DNA of 32,904 nucleotides from a virus. Below are positions 1-32,904 of the stretch, piece by piece. The notes under the pieces are model-generated. The model saw nothing but the letters and a program-made list of their open reading frames with translations, made no database searches and was not told where the DNA came from. The DNA lies in the IMG/VR virus record IMGVR_UViG_3300027712_000012, positions 1 through 32,904 of that record; one strand, written 5' to 3'. Both the position numbers and the translations under genes were made by a program. Within the stretch, counting starts at the first letter, position 1, and each line of letters begins with the position of its first letter.

Positions 1-127
1 CATCAAGCCGTTGACCACGAATCAAATGCGTAATGCCACGTTTTGCAATTGCCTCTGTCAAAGGTTGCCCTACGTTTGCCCAACAGCAATTTAAATAACT
101 CTGTACTCGTACTGGCTTATCGCCTGA
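1..127. repeat. Terminal direct repeat, left copy (circular closure)
   Basis: Bases 1-127 are identical to 32778-32904. The PAPS-reductase-like gene reads in frame across the join, so the sequence is a closed circle of 32,777 bp with a duplicated end. An odd length of exactly 127 bases is typical of a k-mer overlap left by a short-read assembler. It need not be a physical terminal repeat of the virion DNA. Confidence 0.95.
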
Positions 128-379
128 AAATTGCATACCTTCAAAACTATGATCAACCGGCACAACATCGCTTGGATAACCATAAAATTTAATTTGTTGC
201 TCTTGATTTGACTTTACTTCAATAAACTCAACTGCATCTGCTTTAACCTGTTCAATGATTTCCATTGTTTCAGGGTACGCTTTACCAGTATTTGCCCAAA
301 AGACAATTGGATTCTTTTCACGGTACAAGTACCAACACGCTAAAGAATCCTTCCCACCTGAGAACGCTAATCCAAGCAT
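1..379 (-). CDS. PAPS/APS reductase-family protein, N-terminal part (split by window ends)
   Basis: This is the N-terminal 126 residues of a 230-residue protein; the rest is at 32464-32777 on the joined circle. It starts at ATG 379, sharing one base with the stop of the upstream 550-residue gene (TAATG), so the two are probably translationally coupled. The first residues contain the PP-loop SGGKDS (residues 7-12) of ATP-pyrophosphatases and PAPS reductases. A Cys-Cys pair at 98-99 is followed by PLTEA and then HLIRGQRLDES, which parallels the CC...PL...GLRRDQS order of CysH. Members activate or reduce adenylyl-sulfate compounds or catalyse related sulfur transfer. The phage substrate is unknown. 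Family membership is well supported; the precise reaction is inference. Confidence 0.85.
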   Translation of the reverse strand, partial: MLGLAFSGGKDSLACWYLYREKNPIVFWANTGKAYPETMEIIEQVKADAVEFIEVKSNQEQQIKFYGYPSDVVPVDHSFEGMQFSGDKPVRVQSYLNCCWANVGQPLTEAIAKRGITHLIRGQRLD

Positions 380-13762: not shown

Positions 13763-14082
13763 TGCGTAAAAATACCTACCGCCATGACTTCAACGCCTGC
13801 GCCAGTTGTAATCTTCCAAGCGCCGTTTGCAGATACTGCGTTTAGCTCGATGTTATACACACCAATGCCGCCGCCGACCGCAGCTGGCAACACAGTATGC
13901 GTCAAAATGCCTGCGCCTGTACCGTCAACGATTTGAACCGTTGAAGTCAATGCTGTATTGACCGTACAAACCAATCTGTGAATGTAATCACCAATTGCGC
14001 CTGTACCGCCTAAAACCTGCGCCGATGAACTTGCTGCAATGTGTTCGTATTGGTAACGATAAGGATTTGCTACGCCACTCAT
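13759..14082 (-). CDS. Small conserved phage protein after terminase (107 aa)
   Basis: A 107-residue, low-charge, beta-rich protein opening MSGVANPYRYQYEHIAASSS and continuing AQVLGGTGAIGDYIHRLVC, with a C-terminal WKITTGAGVEVMAVGIFTQ. I recall similar small proteins near terminase or coat genes in podoviruses, probably a virion-surface or decoration component. It overlaps the terminase stop upstream by ATGA. No catalytic motif is visible. Confidence 0.7.
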   Translation of the reverse strand: MSGVANPYRYQYEHIAASSSAQVLGGTGAIGDYIHRLVCTVNTALTSTVQIVDGTGAGILTHTVLPAAVGGGIGVYNIELNAVSANGAWKITTGAGVEVMAVGIFTQ

Positions 14083-15416
14083 AATCTTCTACTCCGTTGT
14101 GTTGTGTGGGTTGCCCACATATCATTTAAAGTTACTGTGTTTTCTGGCCCGACCATAAGAGGCTTTTCTGTATCTGCTTGCTTAACCTTTGGCTCTAGCC
14201 TCCAAGCAATCGCCAACATCCTAAATGCGTCAGCTGGGTGAGAAGTCCAATCATGCCTGGGCGTTTGCCTAAATGCCTTCTTGTCCTCGTCATATTCCCG
14301 TTGATATTGCCTTAGTGCTTCTAACCCATCGTGTGTGCGTTCAGCATCAAACCAACATTGCGACAACATCTGCCTGACCGCTTGAATCCCATCTTGCACC
14401 GACAAGTCAGGCACGATAGCCATGTTGTTGATACCTAAATACTCTGCCAATTGCTCAATGACTGACTTACCCGCAGCTGCCAAGGTTTTAGCCCTCGCGT
14501 CATGCGGTAGGTAATGTTTACCGTAAATATACGGCTTTTGTAGCACTATTTTAGCTATTTCCTCGATATTTGCACCACTTATTGCAAAATAATCAATGAT
14601 GTGGATTTCGTTACGCACGACTTGATACCACCAAATTGCCGTGTCATCTCGATAACCCAAGTCCCAAGCCGTGTGGCAAGGTATGTGCGGATCGTAGTCA
14701 ACACGCCTAACTTGTCCGGCCTCGGTCACTTTGCGTAAGTCCTCGCCATAGAACGCGCCAAGAATAGCCGCCTCAAACGAACACTCATACTCTTGTAGAA
14801 ACTGGTCATCGCTGATCTGTGCGGCAGCTGCTCGTAGCTCTGTGTCAGGCAATAGACCAGACTCACTAGCCTTTAAAACAAGGTGAAACCACTCGTCAGG
14901 CGTTTTCTTAGCTGTTTCAAATATCTGCCAAAACTGGTTTTTACCCTTTGGCGTACCGGCAAACACAGCCCAACCCTGCTTGTCTGACAAAGTAGGACGA
15001 ATGACGTTACCCCACACGCTAGGTCTAAAGTCCCCGTATTCGTCCATAAACACGCCATCAAAACCTAAACCGCGCATTGCATCTGCATTATCAGCACCGA
15101 ACAAACGTATTTTGCCACCAGTTATAAGCTCAACCGTCAGCTCGGCCTCGTTGCTTGATGCAAGAACTGGTGCTGCAAAGCGTTTGATGTAGTCCCAAGC
15201 CACAGACTTAGCTTGGCTGCGAAAAGGTGCAATGTAGGCAAATAGTGGGCTTTCAGTCTTGCACATGAGTGCGGCACGGATAATGTCGTTGATTGCTGCG
15301 ACAGTCTTGCCTGCTCGACGGTGGGCAACCAAGCAAGCCCAACGCTCGGTGCGGTTATGGAATGGTTTGAAAGCGCCCCTTGGAGAGTAGGGCAGAGTTA
15401 CTTCCCGTCTTGCCAC
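14079..15416 (-). CDS. terL: Terminase large subunit
   Basis: A 445-residue packaging motor that cuts concatemeric DNA and pumps it into the prohead. The ATPase domain shows the Walker A variant AHRRAGKT (31-38), the Walker B VFMDE (122-126) and the coupling motif FAGTPKGKNQFW (about 153-164). The RNase H-like nuclease domain begins at HTAWDLGYRDDTAIWW (about 239-254), whose Asp residues are the likely metal ligands. Length is normal for short-tailed phages. It overlaps the putative small subunit by 19 bases and the next gene by ATGA. Relatives with this motif set often package headful style, but the packaging mode cannot be read from sequence alone. Confidence 0.95.
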   Translation of the reverse strand: MARREVTLPYSPRGAFKPFHNRTERWACLVAHRRAGKTVAAINDIIRAALMCKTESPLFAYIAPFRSQAKSVAWDYIKRFAAPVLASSNEAELTVELITGGKIRLFGADNADAMRGLGFDGVFMDEYGDFRPSVWGNVIRPTLSDKQGWAVFAGTPKGKNQFWQIFETAKKTPDEWFHLVLKASESGLLPDTELRAAAAQISDDQFLQEYECSFEAAILGAFYGEDLRKVTEAGQVRRVDYDPHIPCHTAWDLGYRDDTAIWWYQVVRNEIHIIDYFAISGANIEEIAKIVLQKPYIYGKHYLPHDARAKTLAAAGKSVIEQLAEYLGINNMAIVPDLSVQDGIQAVRQMLSQCWFDAERTHDGLEALRQYQREYDEDKKAFRQTPRHDWTSHPADAFRMLAIAWRLEPKVKQADTEKPLMVGPENTVTLNDMWATHTTQRSRRL

Positions 15417-20033: not shown

Positions 20034-20050
20034 ATATTAAGCTATCTAAA
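20034..20050 (-). promoter_or_regulatory. Leftward promoter -10 with operator-like site, accessory operon
   Basis: On the minus strand TTTAGATAGCTTAA (20037-20050) overlaps a -10 hexamer TAATAT (20034-20039). It differs by one base from the sites at 22100-22113 and 23023-23036. The -35 region is weak here (around 20057-20062), so the promoter may need activation. Transcription would start near 20028 and give a leader of about 38 bases. Confidence 0.6.
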
Positions 20051-20111
20051 CAATAAAAGCATAGGTGTTAACCCTATTTTTGCAATTATTTTTAATTTAT
20101 TTGGATTTTTA

Positions 20112-22096: not shown

Positions 22097-22125
22097 ATAT
22101 TAAGCTAACTAAACAGATTCGTCAA
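22097..22125 (-). promoter_or_regulatory. Leftward early promoter with operator-like site
   Basis: On the minus strand, TTGACG (22120-22125), 17 bases, then TAATAT (22097-22102) forms a good sigma-70 promoter. The 14-base site TTTAGTTAGCTTAA (22100-22113) covers the spacer end and half the -10, so a bound regulator would block it. The predicted start is near 22090, about 38 bases before the ERF start codon. Confidence 0.78.
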
Positions 22126-22167: not shown

Positions 22168-22383
22168 ATGAATACAACAGAAATCATCAATTGTTTAGGT
22201 GGCACGTTTGCCGTAGCAAAGATGTGCCGAGTTTCGCCAGCTGCCGTGAGTCAATGGAAACATAACGGGCTGCCTGGTTACCAACTGGTGTGGATTGCCG
22301 CCGAACTTGAAAAAAAATCTGATGGCAAATGGAATCGTAAAATGGTTCGTAATTGGCAACAAATATGGCCAGAGTTGCATTAG
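22168..22383 (+). CDS. YdaS/Cro-like regulator
   Basis: A 71-residue protein of the YdaS_antitoxin / Cro-like group: TEIINCLGGTFAVAKMCRVS, then PAAVSQWKHNGLPGYQLVWI and AAELEKKSDG. The helix-turn-helix spans about residues 10-34 and the VSQWKHNGLPG recognition pattern is characteristic. It is divergent from the leftward recombination operon, like cro/cI genes in lambdoid phages. There is no Shine-Dalgarno at good spacing, consistent with a leaderless transcript. It is the best candidate to bind the repeated operator in this window. No partner CI-like repressor or integrase is seen. Confidence 0.85.
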   Translation: MNTTEIINCLGGTFAVAKMCRVSPAAVSQWKHNGLPGYQLVWIAAELEKKSDGKWNRKMVRNWQQIWPELH

Positions 22384-22454
22384 ACTGATTAAGCCTTTAG
22401 CAAGCAGAAACAACAACTGGTAAGGGTCTAGTTTCAACAGCCTAGCTTTAGGGC
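22384..22454. other. Gene-free start of control region
   Basis: This is the beginning of the 675-base stretch without a gene (22384-23058). I see no reading frame with a start and ribosome site here and no clear terminator for the YdaS-like gene. A weak AGCC...GGCT inverted repeat near 22439-22455 has no U-tract. Confidence 0.5.
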
Positions 22455-22484
22455 TTGGCACATCGGAACAGACGGTGGTAGAAT
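22455..22484 (+). promoter_or_regulatory. Strong sigma-70 promoter upstream of predicted small RNA
   Basis: TTGGCA (22455-22460), an 18-base spacer and TAGAAT (22479-22484) match the consensus at five of six bases each. The TGG just before the -10 (22476-22478) gives an extended -10. Transcription would start near 22491. No operator copy is present, so it is probably active regardless of the early regulator. Confidence 0.75.
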
Positions 22485-22490
22485 CAAATT

Positions 22491-22627
22491 GTTGTCTTGG
22501 TCGACGATGTAAGCCGTTTTAGTGTGTATCTTGATTTTTTGATAAATGACGTAAAGAATATTTATCAAAGAATGTCCTCTTTATAAGAGGTCGACCAACA
22601 AGATGCACTCTAAAACGGCTTTTTTAT
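22491..22627 (+). ncRNA. Predicted structured small RNA with intrinsic terminator
   Basis: Bases 22511-22533 pair with 22599-22621: 12 perfect pairs, one U-U mismatch and ten more pairs with one G-U. The 3' strand runs straight into a U-tract (22620-22625), so the long stem also acts as a terminator. Inside the stem are two hairpins: TTTGATAAAT with ATTTATCAAA (22538-22547 with 22560-22569) and CCTCTT with AAGAGG (22576-22581 with 22585-22590). A further nine-base segment, 22497-22505 (TTGGTCGAC), is complementary to 22590-22598 (GTCGACCAA) and could form an alternative pairing. The strand is fixed by the promoter and the U-tract. No known RNA family is recognised; a transcript of about 135 nt is predicted. 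Confidence 0.72.
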
Positions 22628-22920
22628 TGCTCAAAATAACTGTCAGGGCGCATTAGCTAACATGGTAGCCGCCAGTACCCAGAACAGGTTAAATAAAGAA
22701 TTAAAGTTGTATCCCGTGTGACCCGCACGCCCCAGTAGAGAAATCGAACAGGATATAGACAGAGTTTGGAAACAAACTAAAACCATTTACTCTAGGTAGT
22801 GATCTTTTACAGCTGCAAGGACTGCTACTGTTTTAGGGAATCTAGGGGTGGGGTGAGATGCCTGCCATAAACCTAACAAGGTACAGGTCTGTCGTAAAGG
22901 ATTTATCCTCAACTACTATC
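22628..22920. other. Gene-free region, possible origin or control DNA
   Basis: Neither strand has a convincing reading frame. It contains G-run clusters GGG...GGGG-T-GGGG (22836-22853), one tract short of a quadruplex, and a small AGGAT-TT-ATCCT dyad near 22899-22910. Together with the G4 motif and the AT-rich segment that follow, this is where I would look for a replication origin, but no iterons or known initiator sites are visible. Confidence 0.4.
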
Positions 22921-22934
22921 AGTAGCTTGCTACT
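22921..22934. repeat. Perfect inverted repeat AGTAGC/GCTACT
   Basis: AGTAGCTTGCTACT is a six-base perfect dyad with a two-base centre, directly before the G-rich motif. It may be a protein-binding site or a small hairpin; there is no U-tract. Confidence 0.7.
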
Positions 22935-22939
22935 ACGGT

Positions 22940-22960
22940 GGGTGGGTATAAGGGTAGGGG
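22940..22960 (+). other. Canonical G-quadruplex motif
   Basis: Four G-tracts on the plus strand, GGG-T-GGG-TATAA-GGG-TA-GGGG, fit the standard G3+N1-7 rule with short loops. It is followed at once by an AT-rich stretch (22961-22985) and lies about 50 bases upstream of the rightward early promoter. Confidence 0.8.
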
Positions 22961-23010
22961 AACTATATTTAAATAAAACAAAGTAAGGGTTATCACCTAG
23001 TTAATATTTC

Positions 23011-23039
23011 TTGATTGATCTGTTTAGTTAGCTTAATGT
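23011..23039 (+). promoter_or_regulatory. Rightward early promoter with operator-like site
   Basis: TTGATT (23011-23016), a 17-base spacer and TAATGT (23034-23039) form a sigma-70 promoter. The site TTTAGTTAGCTTAA (23023-23036), identical to the one in the leftward ERF promoter, overlaps the spacer and -10. The start is predicted near 23046, a few bases before the ribosome site AAAGGG of the next gene. Confidence 0.75.
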
Positions 23040-23058: not shown

Positions 23059-23331
23059 ATGTCAACAGAACAAAAGATATTGCGGTATTGCATTGAGCCT
23101 AAAACAACAACTGATATTGCTGATTATTGTGGCCTTGAAAAGATCAGCATCTACACACAACTTGCCAAACTTCAGCGCAATAACAAGATTGAGAAACGTG
23201 GGGACGGTAGGCGTGGCTCACCTTGTGTTTATGTCACTATTCGACAAGCACCGACTGCTACAGAATCTTCAGATAATTACGAAAACTTAGTTGTTAAACA
23301 CGCTCATAACCCGTTTGGACTGCGCTTATGA
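23059..23331 (+). CDS. Winged-helix DNA-binding protein (90 aa)
   Basis: A 90-residue protein with a winged helix-turn-helix in residues about 2-60: STEQKILRYCIEPKTTTDIA, then DYCGLEKISIYTQLAKLQRN as the recognition helix, then a basic wing NNKIEKRGDGRRGSPCVYVT. The C-terminal 30 residues look flexible. AAAGGG lies five bases before ATG 23059. It is first in the rightward operon and is probably a transcription regulator; the target could be the repeated operator or later promoters. Confidence 0.8.
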   Translation: MSTEQKILRYCIEPKTTTDIADYCGLEKISIYTQLAKLQRNNKIEKRGDGRRGSPCVYVTIRQAPTATESSDNYENLVVKHAHNPFGLRL

Positions 23332-32165: not shown

Positions 32166-32471
32166 TTACCCCGTGTAATTGTTCGCAGTCATCGATGGCG
32201 CTTGAGCATTAGCCGAATCAAACATACCACCAGTTTGCGCTTGACCAAGTTTAAACCGAGCCAAGTAATCTTGCATATCTTGCATTTGATTTTGTTTTTG
32301 CATTTGCCCATACATACTCATAGCGTTTTGTGCGCCAGCTAATGGGTTTTGCATTTGAGGCATTTGAGCTTGGTTAACATCTTGACCTTGCAACGGAGTT
32401 TGTTGCCCTTGCTGTTGCAGCATTTGAGCCATTTTCTGCTGCGGAGTCATGTTGACGTATTGATTAAGCAT
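32166..32471 (-). CDS. Small Gln/Met-rich ejection-type protein (101 aa)
   Basis: A 101-residue protein: MLNQYVNMTPQQKMAQMLQQ, then QGQQTPLQGQDVNQAQMPQM and MQKQNQMQDMQDYLARFKLG. About a third is Gln or Met. It resembles small internal virion proteins that accompany ejectosome genes. AAGGA lies before ATG 32471, which overlaps the PAPS-reductase-like stop by 8 bases. No domain is recognised. Confidence 0.72.
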   Translation of the reverse strand: MLNQYVNMTPQQKMAQMLQQQGQQTPLQGQDVNQAQMPQMQNPLAGAQNAMSMYGQMQKQNQMQDMQDYLARFKLGQAQTGGMFDSANAQAPSMTANNYTG

Positions 32472-32904
32472 CGCAATTCCTTAATAACTCTAAAGTAGGC
32501 AACAAGGCAGACTTTAGTGCCGCCATGTTTATTTTATATTTTTCATGCAGATTTGGGTGTTTTTCTTTCATCCATGCCACTCGATCCGCTGAGTGCGCCA
32601 AATACGCTGTGCAATCGTAACAATCAAGGCTTGAATGGTCGATTGCATAATGTTCTGGTAACTGGCATTGAGTCCGTAAAAACGCCAAAACTTGCTCTTT
32701 AGTCCATGTTTCTATTGGTTGAATGTAAGTCACACCATTAATTACCGACCCATGTCGAGCCGTGGATTTGTGGCTTTCATCAAGCCGTTGACCACGAATC
32801 AAATGCGTAATGCCACGTTTTGCAATTGCCTCTGTCAAAGGTTGCCCTACGTTTGCCCAACAGCAATTTAAATAACTCTGTACTCGTACTGGCTTATCGC
32901 CTGA
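32464..32904 (-). CDS. PAPS/APS reductase-family protein, C-terminal part (residues 85-230)
   Basis: This is the C-terminal portion of the gene that begins at 379; it continues off the window end into the duplicated 127 bases. It contains the CC pair (98-99), HLIRGQRLDESHKSTARHG, the YIQPIETWTKEQVLAFL block (CysH: NPLxxWTxxDVWxYI) and LDCYDCTAYL with CxxC at 179-182. A CC pair followed about 80 residues later by CxxC is the [4Fe-4S] signature of APS-type reductases. The usual CysH catalytic ECGLH tail is missing; only a lone Cys 228 near the C-terminus (RNCDA) is seen. Fe-S binding is thus plausible, and the reaction unknown. Confidence 0.88.
   Translation of the reverse strand, partial: SGDKPVRVQSYLNCCWANVGQPLTEAIAKRGITHLIRGQRLDESHKSTARHGSVINGVTYIQPIETWTKEQVLAFLRTQCQLPEHYAIDHSSLDCYDCTAYLAHSADRVAWMKEKHPNLHEKYKINMAALKSALLPTLELLRNCDA
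32778..32904. repeat. Terminal direct repeat, right copy (circular closure)
   Basis: Exact copy of bases 1-127. It closes the circle inside the PAPS-reductase-like gene, which gives a 693-base reading frame on the joined molecule. Confidence 0.95.

Follow-up and report, generated by a model that had tools for sequence, protein, structure and literature searches.

What kind of element occupies the non-coding stretch behind the cro-like gene in the control region of this phage? The window analysed here is the whole 32,904-nt virus record IMGVR_UViG_3300027712_000012, and all coordinates refer to it unless a locus is named. An initial annotation, made by reading the letters, had proposed that positions 22491-22627 give rise to an independently transcribed, structured small RNA. 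On sequence grounds that observation is confirmed and the RNA structure is real; its parts, its relatives and the pairing of its 5' loop are described below, followed by a model of how this pairing might act.

Architecture of the RNA

The element lies on the plus strand, as do all the parts described in this section, and begins 107 bases after a gene for a cro-like helix-turn-helix protein (22168-22383; P22_Cro, 29.1 bits, below the cut-off of 30.2). It is preceded by a putative promoter (22455-22484) with 10 of 12 consensus matches, composed of a -35 TTGGCA, an 18-base spacer, a TG and a -10 TAGAAT, exactly where a promoter with a TG before the -10 had been noted. Transcription is predicted to start at G22491, where a 5' hairpin, P1 (22491-22508), begins; this hairpin is absent from the initial annotation, and we draw it from folding and from relatives. 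P1 has a 6-pair stem and a 6-base loop, UUGGUC (22497-22502), and this loop is the start of the nine-base complement, 22497-22505 with 22590-22598, that had been pointed out earlier and that is exact and correctly located. By covariation, the loop together with the first base of the P1 3' arm (22497-22503), carrying a U-turn-like U-N-R motif, pairs with a partner segment, a' (22592-22598); the helix can extend to 9 bp if 22590-22598 is matched with 22497-22505. The 9-mer of the P1 loop has no further exact site within the window.

The main stem, P2, is supported by folding and covariation and joins 22511-22533 to 22599-22621 through 22 pairs and one U-U mismatch (22523/22609), which reproduces the previously described 23-position stem with one mismatch. 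Two internal hairpins had also been seen and are present in the predicted fold: P3 (22534-22573), an apical hairpin that is variable in relatives and whose 15 pairs plus one isolated pair contain the 10-pair core recorded earlier, and P4 (22576-22590), a second apical hairpin of 6 pairs. The U-tract expected after the stem is found at 22620-22625 and, read as that of an intrinsic terminator, places the 3' end at probably ~22624-22627. The 146-base stretch 22485-22630 has a minimum free energy of -54.2 kcal/mol, compared with a mean of -25.77 kcal/mol (sd 3.36) in 200 shuffles, none of which folds as well (z -8.46); the opposite strand gives a z of -6.54, the palindromic stem being common to both strands.

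Genomic surroundings

The likely next gene downstream starts at 23059, 432 bases past the terminator, and has a promoter-like site of its own. This site holds an 18-mer, CTGTTTAGTTAGCTTAAT, that is shared with the site upstream of the leftward ERF operon: the motif occurs exactly at 22099-22116 (-) and 23020-23037 (+), in two early promoter-like sites that diverge, and again, with two mismatches, at 20036-20053 (-). It is a probable early operator, judged by sequence, and likelier in that role than the dyad CATCGGAACAGACGGTG (22461-22477). The dyad was rejected as a Cro operator, its arms differing in two loci (L371 and L275) whose Cro is 100% identical to that of the window.

Two non-coding stretches flank the RNA. 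Behind it, some 380 bases (22628-23010) are matched in 92 viral loci and are possibly an origin or a leader; the idea that they form another folded RNA was discarded, their folding being no better than that of shuffles (z 0.23). In front of it, after the cro-like gene, 22393-22477 is a second conserved and apparently structured element, with an invariant GCCTTTAGCAAGC and AGCTTYAG (28 distinct sequences), whose hairpin arms change together by eye and whose last hairpin (22461-22477) fills the spacer of the RNA promoter. In L089, L194 and L222 this element has no promoter directly after it, and in L389, L386, L011, L238 and L222 a conserved non-coding stretch with GTTGGTATGT follows the cro-like gene, perhaps the rest of the same element. 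The terminase gene (14079-15416) is far from the RNA (22491-22627); among named phages, those of Pelagibacter, Microcystis and Rhodoferax give the best terminase matches (38-43% identity). The two ends of the window (2-379 and 32464-32904) encode overlapping parts of one protein, and the contig is therefore likely to be a phage genome that is circular or has terminal repeats.

Distribution of the RNA

Relatives were collected through an ERF-protein search, from which the best 80 of 588 viral loci were taken, a cro-like protein search (50 loci) and pattern scans (at least 119 and 86 stretches) with patterns drawn from the RNA. A nucleotide profile detects the RNA in 141 of 289 loci, at 142 sites with 87 distinct sequences, a proportion that is not a frequency because the loci overlap in their contigs, three of them are the window itself, type B copies (see below) are included and the patterns derive from the RNA. 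The covariance model R1 detects forward-strand copies in 28 of 83 sources, one of them the window, and further copies in 31 of 49 cro loci; the fiftieth, L282, was left out of that search and carries the RNA in another. Eighteen cro loci have no R1 match. Nine of these contain type B and two, by eye, type C, six end no more than 110 bases from cro, and one, a distant relative, is without the RNA. An RNA of the same plan follows the cro-like gene in 42 of the 43 loci with room for it, two of which were judged by eye.

Two phage records match the window region, MW202520 with a type B copy and MW202674 with a copy of the window's own form, type A. No copy was detected in 399 genomes from the order of a Comamonadaceae MAG under strict filters (E <=1e-6, without a positive control), nor by a profile search of 74 genome-contig stretches, where the best hit (E 0.049) is a chance match by eye; plasmids searched with the window's copy and phage records searched with the L027 copy likewise yielded no match. 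Two weak matches fall in one genome (E 1.2e-4 and 5.5e-4). Among phage pairs with cro more than 90% and the downstream region more than 85% identical, RNA alleles differ in 19 of 24. Hypervariability of the RNA under diversifying selection was considered and rejected: the RNA ranks last in similarity among the three segments in 34.5% of all 226 non-identical pairs from 22 loci, as expected if the segments are exchangeable, and ordinary mosaicism suffices.

Covariation and the loop pairing

Alignment A3 comprises 81 rows, 79 of them distinct; three antisense matches of the palindromic stem as well as L061 and L064 were removed beforehand, and type B was excluded from both A1 and A3. Over P1, P2 and the loop pairing, 95.9% of cells hold standard pairs and 28 of 35 pairs change on both sides. 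The initial annotation had looked to homologous phages for compensatory changes, and these are found in P1, in P2 and in the loop pairing. None of 500 shuffles of A3 reaches the observed value on any of five measures, under a null that ignores the kinship of the rows, which are related; sliding the pairing partners lowers the paired cells to 38-47%.

The loop pairing stands out even though it is absent from the structure on which the covariance model was built. Taken alone it is 98.9% paired, five of its six pairs vary on both sides among the 79 distinct relatives, and it is nearly strictly Watson-Crick, with one G-U in 462 scored cells. In an APC-corrected G-test the top seven of 5,610 column pairs are PK5, PK6, a P2 pair, PK4, a P1 pair, PK3 and PK1. 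The one loop pair missing from this list does not vary (U-A) and ranks 2,431 of 5,610, and the column pair at rank 12 would lengthen the loop pairing to seven. Since the partner is shifted in a few A3 rows, a per-sequence test of loop against partner was used: all 54 distinct loop/a' combinations contain at least 6 contiguous Watson-Crick pairs, and only 34 of 2,652 cross-combinations of sequences with different loops reach 6. There are 24 loop hexamers, and cross-matches between them are rare.

The P1 loop has a U at position 2 and a G or A at position 4 in every one of the 81 rows. The rule for a U-turn is YUNR; its Y is kept in 23 of 81 rows, mostly being replaced by G, and the UUGGUC of the window retains it. 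Lower P2 is conserved in sequence as well as in pairing. In this alignment, made by fitting to the model, gaps are absent from the 23 positions of the 5' strand of P2 in 80 of 81 rows, and the apical stretch ranges from 13 to 64 nt.

Transcription signals

Between 21500 and 23700 there are three promoter-like sites, fewer than the 5.0 that shuffles average, so the promoter match by itself is not significant; the evidence for a promoter comes from the fixed position of the -10 in relatives. In 66 of 80 contexts the best TATAAT match, searched over +/-6 bases, has its end six bases ahead of P1, with a mean of 4.5 of 6 matches as against 1.9 in shuffled upstream sequence. Its second base is A in 73 and its sixth base T in 74 of the 80, and in 14 contexts no more than three bases match. 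A -35 that matches at 5 or 6 of its 6 bases is present in 41 of 80 contexts, the predicted start is G in 74 and A in 6, and at least 6 T of 9 stand at the RNA end in 79. In L026 and L027 a tRNA replaces the upstream sequence and the -10 is kept. The conserved -10, the U-tract and the covariation all support the earlier proposal of an independently promoted, terminated and structured RNA of ~135 nt, and a discrete terminated transcript is a well-supported prediction.

Sister RNAs and DUF1376-like genes

Type B has little sequence in common with type A and shares with it the promoter position, a P1 with a UUG-type loop, the terminator stem and the three-way junction. Loop and partner form 7 contiguous pairs in 21 of 22 copies when the partner is sought over a window (10 of 19 in one register), the 22nd copy needing one G-U, and across different loops 5 of 304 combinations reach 6 pairs. 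P1 and P2 of type B change in step, as seen without a shuffle control. The loops are often exactly UUGGCG, with CGCCAA as partner. Both types occur together in L235 and L269, where their loops differ.

The T run of type B stops 9-21 bases short of an ATG in 14 sites. Nine of the 14 proteins that follow begin MHYYQFN and are DUF1376-like; five do not, which counts against an attenuator reading. The L016 protein is a DUF1376 (PF07120), in Pfam a family of unknown function, and a Pfam search of the guessed L070 stretch gave no family. Presumably DUF1376 proteins have a role in replication. From a search with the L016 protein the best 80 of 592 loci were taken and the upstream regions of 76 examined; 19 of 65 distinct regions have at least 6 T within 60 bases, 18 being type B by eye and one (L464) not, and the type B terminators in those 18 end 8-13 bases before the start codon. 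This placement before a gene suggests a terminator tuned by a putative pseudoknot.

Many other DUF1376-like upstream regions (L430 1843-1909, L493, L437) have a conserved leader, ACGGCTAGG..GAAAAG..CCTGCCG, directly before the gene; in L430 the leader coincides with a match to the int-alpA RNA (RF02996), and by eye it can pair further with the stretch before the gene. The int-alpA RNA thus lies in L430 directly before a DUF1376-like gene, the position that type B has elsewhere, but it does not match type A or B copies in the scanned loci. Type C, directly after the cro-like gene in L376 and L379, is a terminator RNA unrelated in sequence that by eye has a similar 5' hairpin and loop partner.

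Relation to known RNAs

Rfam 15 at gathering cut-offs gives 0 matches in the window, and over 38 related loci, 28 of which have a type A or B copy, no match covers any such copy. The remark in the initial annotation that no described RNA family has this layout is borne out by this search, in which no family reached its cut-off over the RNA. Below the cut-offs only microRNA and snoRNA models appear, the best being a microRNA family with 32.4 bits against 100 (E 0.00042). The Polynucleobacter-1 RNA, whose motif is listed in a table of PMC2864571, is not among the Rfam matches of the window or of the scanned loci, and no description of the RNA was found in open-licence PubMed Central titles and abstract openings, among the matches listed.

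The Betaproteobacteria-1 RNA (RF02932) follows the phage RNA at a distance of 7-82 bases in seven loci (L089 2200-2316, L235 5962-6078, L251 92-209, L220 1051-1176, L240 3352-3477, L028 4280-4405 and L032 3177-3302). It resembles the present RNA as a structured RNA of the same phage regions and differs from it as a separate, adjacent element that gives no match over the RNA. It was seen in 2 of 200 bacterial genomes and may itself be a phage element.

Three systems in which RNA loops find complementary partners invite comparison. The packaging RNA of phi29 is a small phage RNA with complementary loops that assembles through intermolecular loop-loop contacts and is linked to packaging motor genes; the window RNA, in contrast, is distant from the terminase gene and has no Rfam match in the window. 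In the repZ leader, a hairpin loop and a downstream partner pair with each other. PMC10724649, PMC8383071 and PMC4878617 jointly give a leader hairpin loop motif 5'-rUUGGCG-3' for IncI-alpha, IncB and IncL-M (ColIb-P9 repZ), a dependence of ColIb-P9 repZ translation on a pseudoknot upstream of the ribosome site and, for the pT181-type attenuator, loop-loop kissing and an RNA pairing that decides whether a leader terminator forms. Like the IncI/IncB rep leader, the phage RNA has a U-turn-type hairpin loop complementary to a downstream segment (self-match 54/54), and the plasmid motif UUGGCG is the loop of many type B copies. The plasmid pseudoknot, however, affects translation, with an antisense RNA working against it, whereas the phage pairing lies inside the terminator stem; the window's copy is directly before no gene, the gene of type B comes after a terminator, and neither the window nor type B has a pseudoknot adjoining the ribosome site of a replication gene. 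With the pT181-type attenuator the likeness is a leader terminator that may be governed by RNA pairing, in a placement before a gene that fits type B but not the type A of the window. The competing pairing of the phage RNA differs in joining a 5' loop to a segment beside the terminator strand, and the RNA is described without a counter-transcript or a sequestering anti-terminator hairpin.

A model for the loop pairing

We propose that the element is an autonomous phage RNA of ~135 nt, belonging to a new family, in which the loop pairing tunes the terminator, type B being an attenuator and type A a released RNA; we assign this reading a probability of about 0.45. A tuned terminator is the best fit for the family, and we infer its mechanism as follows. 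The promoter would start the RNA at P1, and P2 would serve as the intrinsic terminator. During synthesis the U-turn-like P1 loop would capture a' before the 3' strand of P2 emerges, after which P2 would zip down to the U-tract from its apical end, P1 staying docked at its side or being displaced in part. The race between loop capture and P2 would set how often polymerase stops at ~22627. In type B this stop would fall just before a gene, often DUF1376-like, and the RNA would be an attenuator; in type A the released RNA would probably be the chief product, and read-through into the early region would come second.

Do the loop pairing and P2 exclude each other? The initial annotation took the nine-base complement and the main stem to be possible alternative states. 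The complement stands; the exclusivity is a possibility, since by a rough estimate both fit in all 81 rows if fraying is allowed. The linker between P1 and P2 has 1-3 bases in 68 of 81 rows and 6-7 in 13, and P1 with the loop pairing makes up a rod that would lie along P2. By this rod-and-tether estimate a full P2 and a 7-bp loop pairing can coexist as drawn in 45 of 81 rows, and in all 81 once two A-U pairs at the stem base fray. Such coexistence would make a race unnecessary. Folded simply and in stages as it grows, the window RNA prefers the loop:a' helix at 22598, before P2 closes, and P1 with the full P2 from 22621 on. For the finished RNA thermodynamics favours the full P2, which we count against a tuned terminator. 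At the stage when a' has just emerged, 4 of 79 relatives form P1 in a program without pseudoknots, and otherwise the loop pairing takes its place; because such a program cannot draw them, an intact P1 with a kissing loop at this stage is an assumption.

The suggestion that the RNA works like an attenuator gains indirect backing: sister RNAs stand directly before a gene, but the gene after the window's copy has its own promoter-like site. A cis target of type A is doubtful in view of this site, of the 432 bases that separate the gene from the terminator, and of the type A rows with a downstream plus-strand ORF, which in 61 of 69 lies 200 or more bases off. A released RNA acting elsewhere is a strong rival for the window's own copy. 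The RNA would then be a stand-alone, trans-acting small RNA in which loop and a' only compact the molecule, while the action on host or phage targets falls to a different segment or to a bound protein. The promoter-like -10 and the U-tract present in most contexts fit this well, as do the persistence of the -10 where the upstream sequence is swapped, for instance for a tRNA, the distant ORFs of type A and the sequence conservation of lower P2; the P1-loop 9-mer is without a second exact site in the window, which speaks against it, and the position of type B in a gene leader suggests cis action for that form. For the family we hold a trans-acting role to be possible, if doubtful.

Pairing between molecules is rather unlikely in the form of a self-kissing dimer, in which two copies join, P1 loop to a', as in the phi29 packaging RNA or in antisense copy-number control. 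The nearly strict Watson-Crick pairing, the U-turn-like loop, the scarcity of cross-matches among the 24 hexamers and the short linker, which makes an intramolecular contact tight, are in its favour, but that contact is possible in every row with two frayed A-U pairs, and the terminase gene is remote. A related idea, which we consider improbable, is self-recognition through lineage-specific alleles, with terminated copies kissing nascent ones and so tuning termination as copy number rises. If true, it would make the RNA a phage counterpart of the plasmid incompatibility RNAs, working from a single strand without an antisense gene, and co-infecting phages with the same allele would repress each other. 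Finally, the element might be no more than an elaborate terminator for cro transcription, its promoter-like sequence having arisen by chance. The strong terminator at its end, its location 107 bases past the cro-like gene, promoter-like matches no more numerous than in shuffles and the -10 with only 1-3 of 6 matches in 14 of 80 contexts agree with this, yet a plain terminator needs neither a covarying 5' hairpin nor a loop partner, and the -10 keeps its distance in 66 of 80 contexts even with a tRNA or another element upstream. We regard this last explanation as quite improbable.

What are the implications of the tuned terminator that we favour? A previously uncatalogued phage RNA family, with a loop nearly strictly paired with a deeper segment of the same RNA, is well supported by comparative sequence evidence, and with it phage control regions gain an RNA family linked to a sister RNA in the leader of an often DUF1376-like gene. 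The 24 loop hexamers and their few cross-matches make the role of the loop directly testable by swaps. If the loop pairing tunes termination, the RNA would be an RNA-only dial for early or replication genes of phages, comparable to the control of plasmid copy number.
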